This document shows, piece after piece, positions 9,691 to 30,184 of a stretch of DNA of 64,000 nucleotides (positions are counted from its first letter, which is position 1; each line of letters starts with the position of its first letter). Source of the DNA: Acidiphilium acidophilum. Its GTDB lineage: Bacteria > Pseudomonadota > Alphaproteobacteria > Acetobacterales > Acetobacteraceae. The stretch covers positions 1,595,501 through 1,659,500 of the forward strand of contig NZ_JAWXYB010000018.1 in the NCBI RefSeq assembly GCF_033842475.1, written 5' to 3'. A program made the position numbers and the translations under genes. The notes below the pieces were generated by a model. That model worked only from the letters and a program-made list of their open reading frames with translations. It searched no databases and was not told the origin of the DNA.

Positions 9691-10701
9691 TCAGAAATAG
9701 GCCGTCAGAGACAGGTAAAGACCATTCGAGTTCTTCACATCGATGACCTGACCGCCGGAGACTGCATTCCCGATCGTGCCGAGATCGACATACGCCGCAG
9801 TGATCGAGAGGTTCTTGTTCGGGAAGTAGGCGAGGAACAGATCTTTCCACGCACCGCCCTGGTTGAGGTTCAGACCGGCGCCGACGCCGACCGGGAAGCT
9901 CGGCTCGTCACGATATTCGCCGCCGATCGCCACTTTGCGGTTGAGGAAATAGGCCGCGGTGACGAAAGGTTCGACATGGTAGCCGGATTTGTACTGGCCG
10001 ACCGCATTGGTGCCGCCGAAGCCGAGGAGGCCTTCGTCGTTGGCGTTGGTCACGTTCAGGCCGGCGCTGAGAACGGTGTAGTGGCCGAACAAGCCATCGA
10101 GCCACAGCTTCGTCGCCACGATATAGAAGGACGTGCCGTCCGGATGGGCGCCGAGCACGTCGACGATGTTGCGGTTGGTGCCGGGGAACGCGGCACTGAC
10201 GTTCTCATGATACTGGAGGCCGACCGAAACGACCGGCTCGAGCGATTCCTGATCATAGACCGGATTGCCGAACAGGCGCGCCTTCACGCTGATGACGTTC
10301 TGTTCGAGGTTGAAATCGGAACCGAGGCCGAGCGATGCGCCGGGATTGCCGAGATCGAAATTGTCGCGCGCCACCGAAACTTCGACGCGATTGTAGAAGC
10401 CGATCAGTGCGCCACCGGCATTCAGGGAGTAGCTGCCGGCAATATCATGCGAGTAGAAAGCGGTGCCGCCGATCTGATCATCGGTTTCGTAGCCGCCGAT
10501 AAACGCGAGAGGATTGAGGCCGCCGCCGGCTGCGCCGGTGATGGAGGTCACGCCGCCGGTGGCGTTGATGCCGCCTTGGGAGAACATGGTGCTGTGGGCC
10601 TGGGCTGCCGGCGATGCGACGAGCGCAGCCGTCGCCATCATTGCGAAGCCGCCGATGATCGATGTGAACTTGAGACGTTTTTTGAGTGGGAACATTCCCA
10701 T
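9691..10701 (-). CDS. DUF3034-family outer-membrane beta-barrel protein
   Basis: The 336-residue product has a signal peptide (FAMMATAALVASPAAQAHS) and then alternating amphipathic beta strands rich in Gly, Tyr and Asn, ending in LSLTAYF; a terminal Phe is the usual outer-membrane insertion signal. It resembles DUF3034 proteins, whose function is unknown; a porin or channel is the simplest reading. A perfect AGGAGGT sits 5 nt before the ATG at 10701, suggesting strong translation. It is the first gene of the DUF3034-globin-HiPIP run and is transcribed away from the ECF sigma gene. Confidence 0.8.
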   Translation of the reverse strand: MGMFPLKKRLKFTSIIGGFAMMATAALVASPAAQAHSTMFSQGGINATGGVTSITGAAGGGLNPLAFIGGYETDDQIGGTAFYSHDIAGSYSLNAGGALIGFYNRVEVSVARDNFDLGNPGASLGLGSDFNLEQNVISVKARLFGNPVYDQESLEPVVSVGLQYHENVSAAFPGTNRNIVDVLGAHPDGTSFYIVATKLWLDGLFGHYTVLSAGLNVTNANDEGLLGFGGTNAVGQYKSGYHVEPFVTAAYFLNRKVAIGGEYRDEPSFPVGVGAGLNLNQGGAWKDLFLAYFPNKNLSITAAYVDLGTIGNAVSGGQVIDVKNSNGLYLSLTAYF

Positions 10702-11121
10702 TTTAACCTCCTAATGCCGAATTATTGGTGCCGACGCACATAATTTAGAGGCGCACACTTAGGCAAGTAAAGTTCCGGATTAAGCTAAGTCACATATTAA
10801 GCCGCGGTGTGTGATTTTGGTGACAATCAAGATCTCGTGTACAGCAGATCAGCGGGAAAATTTCGCAGTGCAACATGAGCCGGCCCCAATCTTCATGAAC
10901 GGGTGACGGGATTAGATTGCGACTCAAGTCCACCTACGATCCAGCCATCCAGTCGGATGCATCCGGTTGTGGATTTTTTTTCTCCTGTCCCCATAATAAT
11001 TGCATACATCCCGCGCGAGGATGCTGCCGTTTCCGTAAGCGTAAGCGCCCGATGATTTCGCCGATCGTCAATAAACGACGGGCTCGTCCGCCGGTGCATC
11101 CGGATTGCTTGTCACGGCGTA
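10702..11121. other. 420-bp divergent intergenic region
   Basis: This gap separates DUF3034 (minus) from the ECF sigma gene (plus) and must hold both promoters. It is visibly richer in A+T than its surroundings, for example around 10735-10800 and a T-run at 10974-10981. I see no coding frame with a credible start, no tRNA and no recognised riboswitch. A sigma-factor autoregulatory promoter and the HiPIP operon promoter are expected here, but no motif is clear enough to mark. Confidence 0.5.
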
Positions 11122-23730: not shown

Positions 23731-24510
23731 CTACAGCGCATGTTGATCTGCCCTGATCCGGTTGGCGATGCGGTGCAGGCGCGCGGGTTCGACCTCGGCA
23801 GCAACCGAGAAGCCGACACCGTGGCTGATCCAGGTGAACATGGTGTGACCATTGCGATGATCCTCGGTCATGCGGTCGCTGTGCGCGGGGACATCCATCC
23901 GGCGGACCAGAAGAAGCAGCGGGCGCGCATCGGGTGCCCGGTACATCACCACCGCAGCAGGGCCGTGCAGGGTCGCCAGCCATTCGATCCGCCCGACGGT
24001 ATAGCCGGATGCGGTCAGATCGGGCGGGCTGAAATCGTGACCGACCGCCGCTGTGAGGTCGGGCGCCGTCGTGCGTGTGGGCGTGGTGGGGGCGAAAATC
24101 CGGTAGGCGGCGCGGGTTTCGAGTTTCAGGGCGGCAATGCCGGTTGCGGCGGGGTCGCGATGTATCCCCAGATCGGCCCGAACGAACCAGCCCGAGGACG
24201 CCCCGATCCCGAAAGCGAGCAGGACCAGCGCGGCGGCCCGGGCGTGATCGGCAATCCAGCCGAAGCGGCGCTGCCGGCTGGCTGAAGCGAGGTGCGCCAT
24301 CGTCAGTTCGGGCGCGAGCGGCTGTTCGACGATGCCGGCGAGTCCCGCGCGGAGCTGTTCGCGCTGGCGACGCCAGCTCTCGATCCGGCGGTTCTGCCCG
24401 GGATGCTGCGCCAGATACGCGGCGACGATCGCTTCGCGCTCCGGGCCGAGCACGCCATCGACATAGGCGTGAAGATCGTCATCGGTAATCGGGGGGGTAT
24501 TCTGCGTCAT
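23731..24510 (-). CDS. Anti-sigma factor, membrane-anchored
   Basis: A 259-residue protein: N-terminal anti-sigma domain (DDDLHAYVDGVLGPEREAIVAAYLAQHP, residues 10-40, zinc-finger-like but without the Cys pair), a single membrane helix (AAALVLLAFGIGASSGWFV, about 90-110) and a periplasmic domain with YTVGRIEWLATLHGPAAVVMYRAP. This C-terminal pattern is common in anti-sigma factors paired with EcfG-like or ECF26-type sigma factors. Its start overlaps the sigma factor stop by 4 nt. It would sequester that sigma factor until a periplasmic signal is felt. Confidence 0.88.
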   Translation of the reverse strand: MTQNTPPITDDDLHAYVDGVLGPEREAIVAAYLAQHPGQNRRIESWRRQREQLRAGLAGIVEQPLAPELTMAHLASASRQRRFGWIADHARAAALVLLAFGIGASSGWFVRADLGIHRDPAATGIAALKLETRAAYRIFAPTTPTRTTAPDLTAAVGHDFSPPDLTASGYTVGRIEWLATLHGPAAVVMYRAPDARPLLLLVRRMDVPAHSDRMTEDHRNGHTMFTWISHGVGFSVAAEVEPARLHRIANRIRADQHAL

Positions 24511-25013
24511 GAAACGCTCCGCAAGCGGGGACGGGCGGTGCCGTCCATGAAATCGTTGAGCCGGTCGCGGGCGCGGCTGAGCCGCGACATCACCGTGCCG
24601 AGCGGCAGGTCGAGCATCGCCGCCACCTCGGCATAGGTGAAACCCTCGACGGTGACGAGCAGGAGGATTTCGCGCTGCTCCACGGGTAAGCCGGCGAGCC
24701 CGATCGTGAGGTCGCGCATCTGGAGCCCCGCTTCCTGGCCGGGTCGCACGGCGGCAGCCGGGCCGCCCGAGTCATCGAGCGGGGTCGTGGCGCGGTGTTT
24801 GGCGCGCCGACGGTCGCTGAGGAAGCGGTTGCGCAGGATGGCGAACAGCCATGGCCGGACCTGCTGATCCGCCATGCCGAGCCTGGGCCGTGCCAGCGCA
24901 TCGACCAGCGCGTCATGCACCAGATCATCGGCATCCTGCGCGGTGCCGAGCAAAGCACGGGCGAAACGGCGCAACGACGGGATCGTCTGCTCGATGGCAG
25001 CATGCGTGGTCAC
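24507..25013 (-). CDS. ECF-type RNA polymerase sigma factor
   Basis: A 168-residue ECF sigma factor. Region 2 is LRRFARALLGTAQDADDLVHDALVDALAR with VRPWLFAILRNRFLSDRRR, and region 4 is LPVEQREILLLVTVEGFTYAEVAAMLDLPLGTVMSRLSRARDRL. It begins a minus-strand run: sigma, anti-sigma, AcfC-like, DUF5666-like, cytochrome b, molybdoenzyme. It is distinct in sequence from the ECF factor at 11.1 kb. No -35/-10 motif in the 119-bp gap upstream is clear enough to mark. Confidence 0.92.
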   Translation of the reverse strand: MTTHAAIEQTIPSLRRFARALLGTAQDADDLVHDALVDALARPRLGMADQQVRPWLFAILRNRFLSDRRRAKHRATTPLDDSGGPAAAVRPGQEAGLQMRDLTIGLAGLPVEQREILLLVTVEGFTYAEVAAMLDLPLGTVMSRLSRARDRLNDFMDGTARPRLRSVS

Positions 25014-25132: not shown

Positions 25133-26872
25133 TCAGCTCGCGACTTCCTCGGGGATCGCGCAGACATGATGCCGGGCGAGCCATGCGCCGATCCCCGGCT
25201 GGGCGGACAGGGCGGCAAACGGCACCACCGCGAGGCATGGCCCGATCGTCGGCACCGCCCAGGGCAGCGCGCCGGGGGCGACGGCGGCGAGCACGAGCCC
25301 GGCAAAGGCGCCATAGAGCATCACCGGCCAGAGCGTGCGCGCGAATGCCGCCAGCCCGATCCGGCGCGCGGCGCGGTTCTGCGCCTGCCATCCCGCCCTG
25401 CGGCCAAGCGCGAGGCTGAGCATGAACAGTGCCTGGATCACCAGCATGATCGAACCGAGGCAGAGCGAGAAGACCAGATCGATGATCACGCCGGTCAGCA
25501 GCCGTCCCCGCCCGCCATATCGGCGCGACGCCCCCGGGCGGAGCAGCACATCGACCACACCGAGCAGCCGCGGCGCGAAGATCATCGCCATCACGATCAG
25601 ATAGAGCGCGAAGGCGAGACCCGTCGCGAAACCCCGCCCGGTTCCGGTGAAGGCGATGGCGAGGCCCGACATCAGCATGAGGAAATTGAGCGGTGCGCCG
25701 ACATACATCATGATCGCGTTGATCAGTTGAAACCGGCCCATCGGCTGCAACCCGGGCAGGCGCATGAGGTGGATGTATTGCATATTGCCCTGGCACCAGC
25801 GCAGATCGCGTTTGATGAATTCCAGAATGTCCGGCGGGTTTTCCTCGGAACTGCCGAACTCATCGGCGATCACCCGCACCTCGTACCCGGCGATCCGCAT
25901 GAGCACCGCTTCGACCTGATCGTGACTGAGCAAATCCCCCCGGAGCGGGCCGCGCCCGGGGATCACCGGCAGATCGCAACAATCGACGAACGGGCGCAGC
26001 CGGATGATCGCATTGTGGCCCCAGAACGGCCCGCTCGGCCCCTGCCACCACGCGGTGCCGACCGTCTGCATCCGCATTGCGTGACGCATGCCGAACTGAA
26101 AGATCCGCGCGAAGCCGCTCGCCGCCGGACGGCCGACCACGAGCGATTGCAGGATGCCCAGCCGGTCGTTCGCCTGCATCACCCGGACCAGCCGCAGCAT
26201 GGCATCGGCTGACATCATGCTGTCGGCGTCCAGCACGATCATGTAGTCGTGGGTGTCGCGGGCCGTCGTTGCGAAGGCGCGCATATTGCCGGCCTTGAAA
26301 CCGGTATTCGCCTCGCGCCGCCGGTAGATGATCGCGTCCGGCCGGTTCCGCCCGTCCCGCAGGCGTGCAAAGGCCGCCGCTTCATCGGCAATCGCGTCCG
26401 GCAACTGGCTGTCGCTGAGAACATGAAAGGTGAAATGATCGCCGGCGCCGCTCGCGTCGATATCATCGATCATCGCCCCCAGCCGCGCGAAGCAGGGGGT
26501 CACGTCCTCGTGGCGGATCATGAGGCAGATGGCGGTCATCGCCGTGATCGGTGCATCGAGGGCCGTGCGGGCAAGTGCGGGGTTGGTGTAGCGTGCGGGA
26601 TCGGTCACCAGCCGCGCGATCACGAACCCGATCACCGCGTTCCAGAAGCCGAGCAGGGTCCACGGCAGGCCGAGCAGGAACAACAGGAGGAAGCACAGGG
26701 CGGGGATGCTCAGCCCATCGCCACCGAGCACGCGCACCATCATGACACCCAGCAGCACGTAACTGATCAGGTTGAGGGCCAGAACCAGCGCCCGGCGACC
26801 GCGCAGAGCGGCGGGCGGAGCGCCCAATCGGTCGTCCGGGAGGTTCATTGTGCTGGCGTCCATCAACCCCAT
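25133..26872 (-). CDS. opgH: Glucans biosynthesis glucosyltransferase H (OpgH/MdoH)
   Basis: A 579-residue inner-membrane GT2 enzyme that polymerises glucose from UDP-glucose into osmoregulated periplasmic glucans. N-terminal helices (about 30-95) are followed by the cytoplasmic catalytic domain with FHVLSDSQLPD, FKAGNMRAFA, MIVLDADSMMSAD (DxD) and RDLRWCQGNMQYIHLM (the RW motif), then five or six C-terminal helices. It is shorter than enterobacterial OpgH, with a reduced N-terminus. The ATG at 26872 is preferred; alternatives at 26863 and 26848 start the same domain. No opgG is next to it. Confidence 0.9.
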   Translation of the reverse strand: MGLMDASTMNLPDDRLGAPPAALRGRRALVLALNLISYVLLGVMMVRVLGGDGLSIPALCFLLLFLLGLPWTLLGFWNAVIGFVIARLVTDPARYTNPALARTALDAPITAMTAICLMIRHEDVTPCFARLGAMIDDIDASGAGDHFTFHVLSDSQLPDAIADEAAAFARLRDGRNRPDAIIYRRREANTGFKAGNMRAFATTARDTHDYMIVLDADSMMSADAMLRLVRVMQANDRLGILQSLVVGRPAASGFARIFQFGMRHAMRMQTVGTAWWQGPSGPFWGHNAIIRLRPFVDCCDLPVIPGRGPLRGDLLSHDQVEAVLMRIAGYEVRVIADEFGSSEENPPDILEFIKRDLRWCQGNMQYIHLMRLPGLQPMGRFQLINAIMMYVGAPLNFLMLMSGLAIAFTGTGRGFATGLAFALYLIVMAMIFAPRLLGVVDVLLRPGASRRYGGRGRLLTGVIIDLVFSLCLGSIMLVIQALFMLSLALGRRAGWQAQNRAARRIGLAAFARTLWPVMLYGAFAGLVLAAVAPGALPWAVPTIGPCLAVVPFAALSAQPGIGAWLARHHVCAIPEEVAS

Positions 26873-26947
26873 GTGATGGCACGGTGGCGCGACGCAAGCC
26901 AGAACGTTCCGGGAGTCATCGGCCAATTGAACGATCCGCACGTATAG

Positions 26948-27736
26948 ATGGGCATGACGATTGCTTATGATGCCGAAGGCGGCGACGAACGCTGGCAGTC
27001 CGTGCTGCGGGCCTGCCACGATCCGGAGCCCGCGATCGGCCAGCCGGTATGCGGGCTCTGGGATATCTACGGCCCGATCGCGGCTTGTCGGCATTACCCC
27101 TATGTGATCGCCCAGCTCGGACAGTCGCTCGACGGCAGGATCGTCACGGCGCCCGATCAATCTCCCGCGATCAGCGGCCCCGAAGGACTGCGCCATCTGC
27201 ACCGGCTCCGTGCCCTCGTCGATGCCGTGATCGTCGGCGTCGGCACCGTGGTTGCCGATGACCCGCGCCTCACGGTTCGCCTGGCACAGGGCCCCTCCCC
27301 TGCCCGCATCGTCATCGATCCGCGGTTTCGCCTGCCGGAGCGGGCGAAACTGCTGGCTGACGATGGCGTGCCGGTATTTGTGGTCCAGTCCTGCACAGGC
27401 GAACGGGCGCGTCGGGTACAGCCGGTCGTGGTCCCGGCAACGGCGGATCACGCACCCGGCTCGATAGCCCCTGCCGCCATCATCGCGAGCCTCGCGCAAT
27501 TGGGTTTCCGCCGCATTCTGGTGGAAGGCGGCGCACACACGGTCTCTGCCTTTCTGGCGGCGGGAATGATCGATCGGCTTCACGTGACCGTGGCACCAGT
27601 CATCATCGGTCGCGGACTGACCGGTTGCAACCTGACCCCTACGAACGGACAGCATGGCATGATCCGGCCGCAAACGACGATCCATCGTCTCGGCAGCGAT
27701 ATCCTGTTCGATTGCGTCTTCGGCGATATCCGATGA
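26948..27736 (+). CDS. RibD C-terminal-domain (DHFR-fold) reductase, pathway unknown
   Basis: A 262-residue protein consisting of the reductase half of RibD without the deaminase half. Motifs: QLGQSLDGRIVT, ALVDAVIVGVGTVVADDPRLTVRL, and LVEGGAHTVSAFLAAGMIDRLHVTVAPVIIGRG. In riboflavin synthesis this fold reduces a pyrimidinone with NADPH; stand-alone members reduce pterin- or pyrimidine-like compounds. An N-terminal extension of about 48 residues is not explained. Its stop overlaps the MDR dehydrogenase gene (ATGA), so it opens a four-gene operon with a PTPS-like protein and a glycosyltransferase, which argues for pterin-like chemistry rather than riboflavin. Confidence 0.82.
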   Translation: MGMTIAYDAEGGDERWQSVLRACHDPEPAIGQPVCGLWDIYGPIAACRHYPYVIAQLGQSLDGRIVTAPDQSPAISGPEGLRHLHRLRALVDAVIVGVGTVVADDPRLTVRLAQGPSPARIVIDPRFRLPERAKLLADDGVPVFVVQSCTGERARRVQPVVVPATADHAPGSIAPAAIIASLAQLGFRRILVEGGAHTVSAFLAAGMIDRLHVTVAPVIIGRGLTGCNLTPTNGQHGMIRPQTTIHRLGSDILFDCVFGDIR

Positions 27737-28719
27737 CTGGCCCGGCAAAGGCTCAGGCACTCTGGATCACCGCCGCCGGCCACGCCGCCCTGCGTGAGGC
27801 TGTGCTGCCGCCATTGCCGCCGGGATGGGTGCGGGTTCGCGCGGTGACGAGCGGGATCAGCCGGGGGACGGAATCGCTGGTGTTTCGCGGCGGCGTGCCG
27901 GTGAGCGAGCGCAGCCGGATGCGCGCGCCGTTTCAGGACGGCATGTTCGATTATCCGGTCAAATACGGCTACGCGATGGTCGGGGAGATTATCGCCGGAC
28001 CCGATGACCGGGTGGGGGAGACCGTATTCTGCCTTCATCCGCATCAGGATCTGTTCGATGTTCCGGCTGACGCGGCTCTGACCCTGCCCGCAGGCGTCTC
28101 GCCGGCACGCGCCGCTTTGGCGCCGCAGATCGAGACCGCGCTCAACGCTAGCTGGGATGCCGCGATCGGCATCGGTGATACGATCGCGGTCGTGGGCGCT
28201 GGTGTGATCGGTTGCCTCGTCGGTTATTTGTGCGCGAAGCTCCCCGGCGGTGAAGTGATCCTGATCGACCACAACGCTGGCCGCGCCGCGATCGCAACCC
28301 GACTGGGTTGCCGGTTTCAGCAGCCCGGCGCACCGCCCAGCGAGGAGTGCGACGTGGTCTTTCATGCCTCCAGCTCGGGTGCCGGGCTCGACCACGCGCT
28401 GGCCTGGGCCGGGTTCGAGGCACGGATCATCGAGTTGAGCTGGTATGGCGACAGGTCGGTGACGATCGGGCTCGGTGCCGGTTTCCACAGCCGCCGCCTT
28501 GCGATCATCGCCTCGCAAGTCGGTCATATCGCGCCATCGCACCGGGCGCGCTGGACACACGAGCGGCGATTGCGCCTTGCCCTCGCTTTGTGCGCCGATC
28601 CGGTTCTCGATGTCCTCGTTGCGGACGCCACACCGTTCGCGGACAGTGCTGCGCATTACGGCGCCATCCTGTCCGACCCGGCGACGCTGTGCCATCGTTT
28701 TCTCTATCGAGGTGATTGA
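27733..28719 (+). CDS. Medium-chain dehydrogenase/reductase without the usual zinc motifs
   Basis: A 328-residue MDR-family protein. It has the GroES-like N-terminal part (VTSGISRGTESLVFRGGVP), a Rossmann motif VVGAGVIGCLVGYL near residue 155 and the coenzyme strand VILIDHN. It lacks the GHE catalytic-zinc motif and the four-Cys structural zinc loop, resembling BchC-like and other zinc-free MDR proteins. It is probably NAD(P)-dependent, with an unknown alcohol or carbonyl substrate. Start overlaps the RibD-like gene by 4 nt, and its stop directly abuts the PTPS-like start. Confidence 0.8.
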   Translation: MTGPAKAQALWITAAGHAALREAVLPPLPPGWVRVRAVTSGISRGTESLVFRGGVPVSERSRMRAPFQDGMFDYPVKYGYAMVGEIIAGPDDRVGETVFCLHPHQDLFDVPADAALTLPAGVSPARAALAPQIETALNASWDAAIGIGDTIAVVGAGVIGCLVGYLCAKLPGGEVILIDHNAGRAAIATRLGCRFQQPGAPPSEECDVVFHASSSGAGLDHALAWAGFEARIIELSWYGDRSVTIGLGAGFHSRRLAIIASQVGHIAPSHRARWTHERRLRLALALCADPVLDVLVADATPFADSAAHYGAILSDPATLCHRFLYRGD

Positions 28720-29130
28720 ATGTACGCTCTTGAAATTCGCGATCACATCATGATCGCCCATAGTCTGAACGGTGCGGTATTCGGCCCGGCGCAGCGGATG
28801 CACGGGGCGACCTTCGTGATCGATGTCGCGTTCTTTCGCGAAACCCTCGATCCGGACAATATCGTGGTGGATATCGGCCGGGCGGGCGATGCGCTGCGAA
28901 CGGTTCTGGCGGAACTCAACTACGCCAATCTCGATACTCATGAGGCGTTCAAAGGTGCTGTCACCACCACCGAGTTTCTGGCCCGCCACGTGTTCGACCG
29001 GTTGGCGGCTGCGATCCGCGCCGGCGATCTCGGACCGCACGCCGAGGGGATCGGGCGCATGAGGGTCACGCTGCGGGAATCGCATATTGCCCGCGCGTGG
29101 TACGAGGCGTCGCTTGCTCCCCCAGCCTGA
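28720..29130 (+). CDS. 6-pyruvoyl-tetrahydropterin synthase/QueD-fold protein with altered active site
   Basis: A 136-residue single-domain PTPS-like protein. The fold is recognised by MIAHSL (H14), RMHGATFVIDVAFF (H28), TTTEFLARHVFDRL and the pterin-binding Glu in RVTLRESH (E120). By eye against QueD, however, the catalytic Cys is Ala24, the second His of the HGH zinc motif is Ala30, and the Asp-His pair is Asn67-Tyr68. It therefore probably cannot perform standard PTPS or QueD chemistry and may instead bind a pterin or catalyse a different step. It is the third gene of the RibD-MDR-PTPS-GT4 operon. Confidence 0.8.
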   Translation: MYALEIRDHIMIAHSLNGAVFGPAQRMHGATFVIDVAFFRETLDPDNIVVDIGRAGDALRTVLAELNYANLDTHEAFKGAVTTTEFLARHVFDRLAAAIRAGDLGPHAEGIGRMRVTLRESHIARAWYEASLAPPA

Positions 29131-30184
29131 GCCTGAGCCCAGGCTGATCTTCGCGGTTCCGGGCTCGATCACGACACGGACTGGTGGATCGATCTACGAC
29201 CGGCGCGTGAGTGCGGCCTTGCGGGACCGGGGATGGAACGTCGATATCGTCGAATGTTCCGGCCATTTCCCTGCGCCCTCGGAAACCGACCTCCTCGCCC
29301 TCGACCGCGTTCTGGGATCGTGTCCCGATCGGGCGCTGGTCATGATCGATGGACTGATCTTCGGGGCGATCCCCGGCATGGCGGCCCGTCACGCGGCTCG
29401 ATTGCGTCTGGTCGCCCTGGTGCACCACCCGCTCGCGCTGGAGACCGGTCTCGGTATCGAGGCCATCGCGCGGTACCGCGACGCCGAACAACGTGCACTG
29501 CGTTGTGCGGCGGGCGTGATCACCACCAGCGAGACCACCGCTGCCATCCTGATCCGTGACTATGCCGTTGCGCCCGGATGCATAACGATCGCGCCGCCCG
29601 GAACCGATCGCCCGGCCCATCGCGGGCGCGACCCCGCGCAGCCGACGATTGCGCTGCTCGCGGTCGGGGCGGTGATTCCACGAAAAGGATACGACGTGCT
29701 GGTGGAGGCACTCCGCCATCTCGCCGATCTGGATTTCGCCTGCCTGATCATCGGCAATATCGAACGTTGCCCGGCGACGGTGGCTGCGTTGCGCGCGGCG
29801 ATCCGCGCGGGCGGGTTGGATCACCGGATCACCCTGGCCGGTGAAGTGGATGATGTCGACCGCGCTTATGCCAATGCTGACATCTTCGTGCTGCCGAGCC
29901 GGTATGAAGGCTACGGCATGGTCTTCGGCGAAGCGCTTACTCACGGTTTGCCGATCGTCGCGACCGTTGCGGGGGCGATCCCGAGCGTGGTTCCCGCCGA
30001 TGCCGGGCATCTGGTCCCGGTCGATGATCCAATTGCCCTCGCGGACGCTTTGCGTGGAGTGATCACCGAACCGGAGCATCGGGCACGCCTTGCGGCAGGG
30101 TCCCGGCGCGCGGTGCGCGATTTGCCGGACTGGACTGACACTGCGCGATTGATCGGGGAGGCGCTGCGCAAGCTGCCAGACTGA
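29114..30184 (+). CDS. GT4 family glycosyltransferase
   Basis: A GT-B enzyme of about 356 residues. The N-terminal half begins PRLIFAVPGSITTRTGGSIYDRRV; the C-terminal half has LLAVGAVIPRKGYDVLVEAL and the donor-binding EX7E-type region LPSRYEGYGMVFGEAL. It would transfer a sugar from an activated nucleotide donor. The start is uncertain: TTG at 29114 overlaps the PTPS-like gene by 17 nt, while TTG at 29087 overlaps by 44. Tight coupling to pterin-type genes suggests that the acceptor is a small heterocycle rather than a polysaccharide; that is inference. Confidence 0.85.
   Translation: MLPQPEPEPRLIFAVPGSITTRTGGSIYDRRVSAALRDRGWNVDIVECSGHFPAPSETDLLALDRVLGSCPDRALVMIDGLIFGAIPGMAARHAARLRLVALVHHPLALETGLGIEAIARYRDAEQRALRCAAGVITTSETTAAILIRDYAVAPGCITIAPPGTDRPAHRGRDPAQPTIALLAVGAVIPRKGYDVLVEALRHLADLDFACLIIGNIERCPATVAALRAAIRAGGLDHRITLAGEVDDVDRAYANADIFVLPSRYEGYGMVFGEALTHGLPIVATVAGAIPSVVPADAGHLVPVDDPIALADALRGVITEPEHRARLAAGSRRAVRDLPDWTDTARLIGEALRKLPD

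Follow-up and report, generated by a model that had tools for sequence, protein, structure and literature searches.

What is made by the compact operon at positions 26948-30184 of a 64,000-nucleotide stretch of the Acidiphilium acidophilum genome (contig NZ_JAWXYB010000018.1; the whole stretch is called the window)? Its four open reading frames (ORFs), all on the plus strand, encode a RibD_C reductase, a zinc-free BchC-like MDR dehydrogenase, a protein with the PTPS fold (T-fold) and a GT4 glycosyltransferase. Judging from the protein sequences, the operon probably makes a modified pterin-like molecule. The gene set to which it belongs, of the SCO6650 / FGPAQ type, is a widespread biosynthetic operon that is apparently mobile.

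The T-fold protein and its conserved neighbors

The residues of the T-fold protein were counted at 87 distinct loci including the host, aligned with E. coli QueD and given in QueD numbering. The catalytic Cys27 and the zinc ligand His33 were both replaced by Ala in all 87 loci, and the catalytic His71 was lost in every case (Tyr in 80, Phe in 6, Leu in 1). In contrast, the pterin-anchoring Glu110 and the zinc ligand His31 were retained in 87/87 loci, and the zinc ligand His16 in 86 (one gap). The signature FGPAQ, residues 21-25 of the window protein, was similarly constant, with F, G, P and A in 87 and Q in 85 loci. Judged by its sequence, the active site is remodelled yet strictly conserved, and it is neither that of a PTPS nor that of a decayed PTPS. 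Because the catalytic Cys and a zinc His have been lost, PTPS or QueD activity by the known mechanism is excluded, and a biopterin-glycoside or queuosine-type route is therefore unlikely. Pterin-like chemistry, however, fits the retention of the anchoring Glu. The pterin-like product proposed in a first-pass annotation of this DNA is thus supported, by virtue of this Glu and of a GTP cyclohydrolase II (GCHII) linked at many loci, but hardly as a biopterin glycoside or a queuosine-type compound.

The best profile match among solved structures was PDB 3d7j (E 7.5e-62; next match, 7.4e-8), which is SCO6650 of Streptomyces coelicolor. An AlphaFold model of the T-fold protein (predicted local distance difference test, 94.8) superimposed on 3d7j with a template-modelling (TM) score of 0.94 and a root-mean-square deviation of 0.7 Å at 55% identity. 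The QueD and 6PTHBS models matched only below their cut-offs (6PTHBS, 25.2 bits versus 125.5). By sequence, the protein belongs to the SCO6650 / FGPAQ subfamily, the 'PTPS-IV' of AGeNNT. The authors of 3d7j reportedly described SCO6650 as having no zinc, no catalytic triad and no PTPS activity, with binding residues compatible with a pterin. A structure of this type has been available since 2008, and no function was found in the literature. The label '6-carboxytetrahydropterin synthase', attached to the match in 14 of 20 plasmid records, is not supported by the active site of the subfamily.

To describe the neighborhood, 89 loci were assembled, 53 from GTDB contigs and the other 36 as stretches of as many genomes, the host's and those of 35 relatives, and the neighboring ORFs were clustered and modelled. 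L034 and L086 lie on the same contig and L085 is truncated, which leaves the 87 distinct loci. All loci were collected via the PTPS-like gene without a random-locus control, and they are not independent of each other. A well-flanked set of 69 loci, including the host, had at least 6.5 kb on each side of this gene. In this set, the MDR gene was found within 8 kb of the T-fold gene at all 69 loci, GT4 at 63, an S-adenosylmethionine (SAM) methyltransferase at 57 and RibD_C at 54, and these five core genes occurred together at 41. Further neighbors were GCHII (PF00925; 36 loci), MdoH (32, within 8 kb), cytochrome b561 (24), CDP-alcohol phosphatidyltransferase (22), creatininase (14), FkbM methyltransferase (11), an NdvA-like ABC protein (10), a lysylphosphatidylglycerol (LPG)-synthase-like transmembrane protein (10), YceI (8) and sulfatase (7). 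For the GCHII, creatininase, FkbM, methyltransferase, ABC, GT2, CDP-alcohol phosphatidyltransferase and LPG-synthase-like families, the names come from Pfam matches of single representatives. The name 'NdvA-like' was given by eye, and so were b561, YceI and sulfatase; annotated relatives bear the labels 'cytochrome b' and 'sulfatase'.

Members of the Alpha-, Beta- and Gammaproteobacteria and of the Actinomycetes carry the gene set, in some cases on plasmids; a myxococcal locus (L080) contained only RibD_C, MDR and the PTPS-like gene. The first-pass annotation had proposed a search for co-occurrence of the four families across alphaproteobacteria, and they are indeed conserved together, also beyond this class. 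It had likewise suggested looking for a nearby GTP cyclohydrolase; one is linked, and it is of type II. A contiguous seven-gene set of creatininase, MDR, PTPS-like, GT4, methyltransferase, RibD_C and GCHII genes was seen at L118 and L119, in genomes G161 and G259. These genomes have sizes of 1.6 and 1.4 Mb, respectively, and the pathway is retained even there.

A relative of the T-fold gene is carried by 20 plasmid records. The regions of nine were viewed, and seven contained the cluster: Methylosinus, Streptomyces fungicidicus, Microbacterium, Thiodictyon, Rhizobium, Rhodobacteraceae (without GT4) and Neorhizobium. The Neorhizobium plasmid is conjugative, and its mdoH, MDR, PTPS-like, glycosyltransferase and one further gene are co-directional, with a gap of 2 nt between mdoH and the MDR gene. 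The 59-kb Microbacterium plasmid pSGAir0570_2 is typed as mobilizable and has a Mu-type transposase and a recombinase nearby; its compact cluster comprises CDP-alcohol phosphatidyltransferase, MDR, PTPS-like, GT4, methyltransferase, LPG-synthase-like and RibD genes. An MDR tree was built by a quick method and rooted at its midpoint; 18 of its 73 inner branches were open. In this tree, the Thiodictyon plasmid copy as well as betaproteobacterial and myxococcal sequences fell among alphaproteobacterial ones. Together with the plasmid copies, this placement indicates horizontal transfer.

The gene set was also analyzed at the level of genomes. A sample of 289 alphaproteobacterial genomes, including the host, contained 37 with a T-fold match; G211 was dropped because its match was weak (26%), leaving 36 positives. 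They were compared with 36 negatives, chosen by handle order plus three from the family of the host, many of which are small or incomplete and which are unmatched for size and phylogeny. For large genomes, only 31-37 first-look candidates were scored. The MDR subfamily was found in 36/36 positives (E at most 4.3e-108) versus 0/36 negatives (best 4.2e-15), the methyltransferase in 33/36 (E at most 1.5e-58; missing in G053, G246 and G277) versus 0/36 (best 4.9e-6), and the RibD_C subfamily at more than 230 bits in 30/36 versus 0/36 (best 165 bits). GCHII and creatininase (families A1 and A4) were rejected as genome-level markers because their profiles match negatives too. The gene set is conserved and dedicated; the genes, their linkage, this co-occurrence and the remodelled active site are direct observations.

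Several additional searches were performed. In eight loci, Rfam at the gathering threshold yielded nothing beside the operon genes; a cobalamin riboswitch was found at L055, about 2.5 kb past the b561 gene, and a tRNA at L040. In a fold search with the methyltransferase, the matches listed were diverse SAM methyltransferases with TM scores of at most 0.65. PHROGs matches comprised only a dehydrogenase, a glycosyltransferase and one unnamed family.

Putative chemistry and alternative explanations

GCHII is the likely entry enzyme of the pathway. Matches of at least 290 bits were present in 40 of the 89 loci and a FolE-like gene in one (L113; FolE2 lay outside the search). The GCHII alignment had 43 rows; the 40 with at least 290 bits were used, and the low-scoring L039, L049 and L096 were set aside. 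The zinc-binding Cys residues were invariant in 18/18 rows of family A1. Position 105 (E. coli numbering) was Tyr in 33 of the 40 rows and Gln, Met or His in seven, and creatininase was linked in 7/7 loci with a replaced Tyr105 versus 5/33 with Tyr. The GCHII homologue SCO6655 reportedly forms the formylaminopyrimidine FAPy, and in this protein replacement of Tyr105 is reported to go along with FAPy formation. The creatininase-family protein BrbF is a proven formamidase of 2-amino-5-formylamino-6-ribosylamino-4(3H)-pyrimidinone 5'-phosphate (AFRPP), which deformylates FAPy/AFRPP to 2,5-diamino-6-ribosylamino-4(3H)-pyrimidinone 5'-phosphate (DARPP) (PMC9478397). GCHII is linked to the operon in 11 of the sampled genomes; three of these (G015, G161, G216) have another strong GCHII elsewhere, while the linked gene was the sole strong match in the other eight, e.g., G189. 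Because of the additional enzyme, the linked GCHII in the former three genomes is not simply the riboflavin enzyme, and it looks dedicated to the operon.

The best solved relatives of the RibD_C profile were 6p8c, a DARPP reductase (1.4e-45), and 2azn (1.3e-41), followed by RibD chains (about 1e-36 to 1e-34) and, last, dihydrofolate reductase (DHFR). The window reductase scored below the equivalog cut-offs of both the archaeal TIGR01508 (121.5 versus 186.45) and the bacterial TIGR00326 (108.3 versus 156.35). The curated models do not decide between DARPP and the deaminated substrate. We propose that it may be a DARPP reductase. In the MDR, S43, G45-T-E and K77-Y-G-Y were invariant in 25/25 rows, at positions where zinc MDRs have Cys and Gly-His-Glu; the zinc-site residues are thus lost. 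The better solved relatives of its profile include iditol, galactitol-1-phosphate, xylitol and sorbitol dehydrogenases. As the match lies mainly in the nucleotide-binding half, these relatives say little about the substrate. We suggest that the MDR may act on the ribityl chain, oxidizing one of its secondary alcohols, and that the T-fold protein may act as a cyclase.

The following reading is favored tentatively; we regard it as quite possible, if short of probable. A core of MDR, T-fold protein, GT4, methyltransferase and RibD_C, fed by GCHII, would lead from DARPP to a dihydropterin that is then decorated and transferred to the envelope. We infer every step of this chemistry. GCHII would give DARPP; at creatininase-linked loci, a FAPy/AFRPP-forming cyclohydrolase would be followed by the creatininase as a BrbF-like deformylase, again yielding DARPP. 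RibD_C would convert the ribosyl group by reduction into a ribityl chain, with no deamination of the ring, and the BchC-like MDR would then oxidize one of the secondary alcohols of this chain, the 2'-OH being the simplest choice, to give a ketone. Through its conserved Glu, the T-fold protein would hold the 2-amino-4-oxo-pyrimidine, and the 5-amino group would close on the ketone. Ring closure would generate a dihydropterin of the 7,8-dihydroneopterin-3'-phosphate type without GTP cyclohydrolase I, i.e., the skeleton that GTP cyclohydrolase I provides, by another order of steps. GT4 and the methyltransferase would decorate it, and MdoH would hand the product to the membrane or periplasm, a task that might fall to a CDP-alcohol phosphatidyltransferase and a flippase-like protein in other lineages. 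In the host, the cyclohydrolase and the methyltransferase would be supplied from elsewhere in the genome. An extended version appears improbable to us: the methylated and glycosylated product of this GTP cyclohydrolase I-independent route would be anchored in, or moved to, the envelope via MdoH or CDP-alcohol phosphatidyltransferase plus flippase, and would serve there as a redox cofactor, possibly together with cytochrome b561.

Several results weigh against the proposed chain from DARPP. Only one of six scanned operon reductases, that of the window, scored higher on the archaeal DARPP reductase model than on the bacterial RibD model, and the RibD_C subfamily was missing in 6/36 positive genomes (G064, G096, G175, G231, G233, G271). 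GCHII is present in full length in genomes lacking the PTPS-like gene as well, so its link to the operon rests on synteny, and the Tyr105/creatininase pattern is confined to one clade, since the seven replaced rows are all from Actinomycetes. Eight of the 36 positives had no GCHII above 230 bits (G064, G095, G096, G128, G184, G205, G229, G231); five of them had a strong BrbF-like creatininase, and G095, G096 and G205 had neither. These presumed riboflavin makers recall the undiscovered cyclohydrolase of PMC9478397. At L113, the FolE-like gene (10350-11078, plus strand) is the immediate upstream neighbor of the MDR gene, to which it is divergently oriented, and the RibD_C subfamily was not found in the respective genome, G231. 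If FolE supplies a pterin there, the MDR and the T-fold protein would act after ring formation. This locus weighs against the chain or in favor of a variant starting at the pterin, possibly a natural swap of the entry enzyme. Lastly, two Streptomyces plasmids carry a SCO6650-like gene without the cluster in view (L141:10001-10426, L142:9001-9399); both genes are labelled 6-carboxytetrahydropterin synthase.

The same genes can be interpreted differently. The pathway might start from dihydroneopterin phosphate made by FolE, with RibD_C reducing the pterin ring like DHFR, the MDR oxidizing the side chain, the T-fold protein isomerizing, and GT4 and methyltransferase finishing the product. RibD_C does have the DHFR fold, other T-fold proteins of the PTPS family act on dihydroneopterins, and L113 fits this reading. 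We nevertheless consider this rather unlikely, though deserving serious attention: one FolE-like gene stands against 40 strong GCHII matches in the 89 loci, the catalytic Cys, the third zinc His and the catalytic His of PTPS/QueD are gone, and the RibD_C profile, at 1e-45 to about 1e-34 on DARPP and RibD reductases, reached DHFRs with 9e-7 at best. Alternatively, the operon might modify a riboflavin intermediate, with no pterin formed; the product would then be of the flavin, lumazine or deazaflavin type, F420-like compounds included. RibD_C and GCHII are riboflavin-pathway families, and a review states, as unpublished, that PTPS-IV, the name given by AGeNNT to the FGPAQ subfamily, is involved in F420 synthesis (PMC5041015). 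In G246, genes for F420 ligase and CofH share a contig with the operon, at a distance of about 10 kb (G246:C10:10403-12952); a CofD-like protein was recognized by eye in the left flank of L035. However, F420 ligase was found in only 6/36 and CofH above cut-off in only 7/36 positive genomes, neither matched in the host genome (G000), and the window RibD_C has no deaminase domain, so the 2-amino group would stay. A role in F420 synthesis was rejected for the host and in general due to the rarity of F420 genes among carriers (positive genomes only were compared), and this type of product as a whole is unlikely.

The neighboring envelope genes suggest another possibility, namely a glycan or envelope operon of mdoH, GT4 and ABC exporter. 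The redox and T-fold genes would then take part in modifying a sugar nucleotide or lipid, and no pterin would be formed. The frequencies of MdoH, NdvA-like ABC, CDP-alcohol phosphatidyltransferase and LPG-synthase-like genes and the absence of MdoG from the host agree with it. These genes are variable, whereas MDR, T-fold, reductase and methyltransferase genes are more constant, and at 16/69 loci both MdoH and CDP-alcohol phosphatidyltransferase are missing from the surrounding 8 kb, which makes this explanation distinctly unlikely. By far the least credible is the public annotation, a QueD/queuosine or PTPS/tetrahydrobiopterin operon. It can draw on the Pfam PTPS domain, on the plasmid labels, and on the host's other PTPS-family protein, which has Ser for the catalytic Cys while a clear QueD was not found elsewhere. 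The loss of the catalytic Cys and one zinc His in 87/87 loci and the QueD and 6PTHBS scores below cut-off oppose it, and both the queuosine and the biopterin readings were rejected on the active-site residues.

Returning to the route from DARPP to a dihydropterin, we propose MdoH as an export or decoration partner of the operon. MdoG (PF04349) had no match in the host genome and, among 14 control genomes, was found in E. coli only; an ordinary periplasmic glucan (OpgGH) locus was therefore rejected. MdoH and CDP-alcohol phosphatidyltransferase occurred together at one of the 69 loci (Fisher p 9.8e-7). This mutual exclusion was not significant on the MDR tree (4 supported independent pairs, 8 with all branches) and is treated as lineage-confounded, as is the MdoH-b561 association. 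For this control, the presence sets of the seven plasmid loci were set by hand from annotation, taking 'cytochrome b' as b561 and an unnamed gene after GT4 as the methyltransferase.

For an old orphan, a gene set with matching presence and absence across genomes provides a definite list of enzymes, together with a hypothesis on the order of their reactions. If the hypothesis is true, the ring-closing step would be a new route to pterins.

The operon in its host genome

The layout and the families given in the first-pass annotation were confirmed; Pfam and NCBIfam agree with them, the glycosyltransferase being of type GT4 (Table 1). The RibD_C and MDR genes overlap by the 4 nt ATGA (27733-27736), the MDR and T-fold genes abut directly at 28719/28720, and the T-fold and GT4 genes overlap by 17 nt when the GT4 start is TTG at 29114, which was picked by eye (alternative start, 29087). 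The EX7E motif of GT4, assigned by eye, is EGYGMVFGE. Both MdoH models exceed their cut-offs using 25133-26500 alone.

Table 1. Coordinates of the operon and its divergent neighbor in the window.
Feature	Position	Strand	Evidence
RibD_C-type (DHFR-fold) reductase, stand-alone, without deaminase domain	26948..27736	+	PF01872 E 1.5e-41, 142.8 bits
BchC-like zinc-free MDR dehydrogenase	27733..28719	+	NCBIfam TIGR01202 bchC E 3.7e-11, below cut-off
PTPS-fold (T-fold) protein, SCO6650 / FGPAQ subfamily	28720..29130	+	PF01242 E 1.6e-20
GT4 glycosyltransferase	29114..30184	+	PF13692 (Glyco_trans_1_4) E 1.2e-28, PF00534 E 8.7e-27
MdoH-type GT2 membrane glucosyltransferase, divergent from operon, start by eye	25133..26872	-	NF003958, NF003962 above cut-off
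Divergent intergenic region mdoH/operon, 75 bp, presumed promoter region	26873..26947	.	position only

The four genes are not the whole set; the first-pass annotation had missed mdoH and the methyltransferase. mdoH belongs to the conserved neighborhood, and the operon is only a part of the gene set, because the methyltransferase and GCHII are encoded elsewhere in the 4.16-Mb host genome. The pathway methyltransferase lies at C18:11244-12011, 1.6 Mb from the operon, and GCHII at C18:2268239-2269306, not adjoining it; both were re-found with our own models in fetched stretches. The methyltransferase (L131:11238-12014) is near one end of the 3.6-Mb contig, with transposases recognized by eye among the surrounding ORFs. 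The claim that folate, riboflavin and queuosine routes are encoded separately held for FolE (C18:3174395) and a full RibD (C18:3006721). The second PTPS-family protein of the host (L128, C18:1779416-1779760) has kept HGH and has Ser at the position of the catalytic Cys of QueD; on this sequence it is at most a putative QueD. Just past mdoH, the region 23731-25013 contains an extracytoplasmic function (ECF)-type sigma factor (24507-25013, minus strand) and then an ORF for a possible anti-sigma factor, judged by position only. The closest relative found was L033, a 4.1-kb contig of an Acidiphilium metagenome-assembled genome, with 97% identity across residues 1-133 of the PTPS-like protein.

Comparison with known systems

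SCO6650 of S. coelicolor belongs to the same T-fold subfamily as the window protein. The S. fungicidicus plasmid cluster consists of CDP-alcohol phosphatidyltransferase, MDR, PTPS-like, GT4, methyltransferase, creatininase and GCHII genes; in comparison, the window operon has RibD_C in line and a divergent mdoH, but no linked creatininase, GCHII or methyltransferase. BchC, the bacteriochlorophyllide secondary-alcohol dehydrogenase, is presumably also a zinc-free MDR, and the operon MDR shares its sequence family, but scored 42.7 bits against the TIGR01202 bchC cut-off of 291.25. Cyanobacterial pterin glycosides require GTP cyclohydrolase I, an active PTPS and a pterin glycosyltransferase. The likeness is one of concept, a PTPS-fold protein together with a glycosyltransferase, whereas FolE occurs at a single operon locus and the PTPS residues are gone.

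The first-pass annotation knew of no named pathway for this set. Our literature search likewise listed no title or abstract in which the set is given a product, but the subfamily itself had been seen before, in the SCO6650 structure and in the AGeNNT study of 2017. There, cluster 62 contains 561 FGPAQ sequences named 'PTPS-IV' with PF00925 and PF01872 as neighbors (PMC5445326). Thus, the subfamily and its RibD_C and GCHII neighbors are already in print, and the window is a further member; it shares FGPAQ and the adjoining PF01872, while its PF00925 gene (GCHII) is unlinked. In its accessible part, PMC5445326 names no product and no MDR, GT4, methyltransferase, MdoH or CDP-alcohol phosphatidyltransferase, and it calls PF00925 GTP cyclohydrolase I. 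Zallot et al. place PTPS-IV in archaeal F420 synthesis (unpublished) and leave PTPS-V unclear (PMC5041015). FGPAQ was not found in the main text of that paper, and the two PTPS-IV labels may differ in meaning.

The entry into riboflavin synthesis via BrbF or archaeal ArfB and DARPP reductase uses the same kinds of enzymes, namely GCHII, a creatininase-family protein and a stand-alone RibD_C (PMC9478397). Lumazine and riboflavin synthases were not among the recurring neighbor families of the clustering, as judged by eye rather than by a profile search. Unlike the riboflavin route, the operon continues with the MDR, the T-fold protein, GT4 and the methyltransferase.

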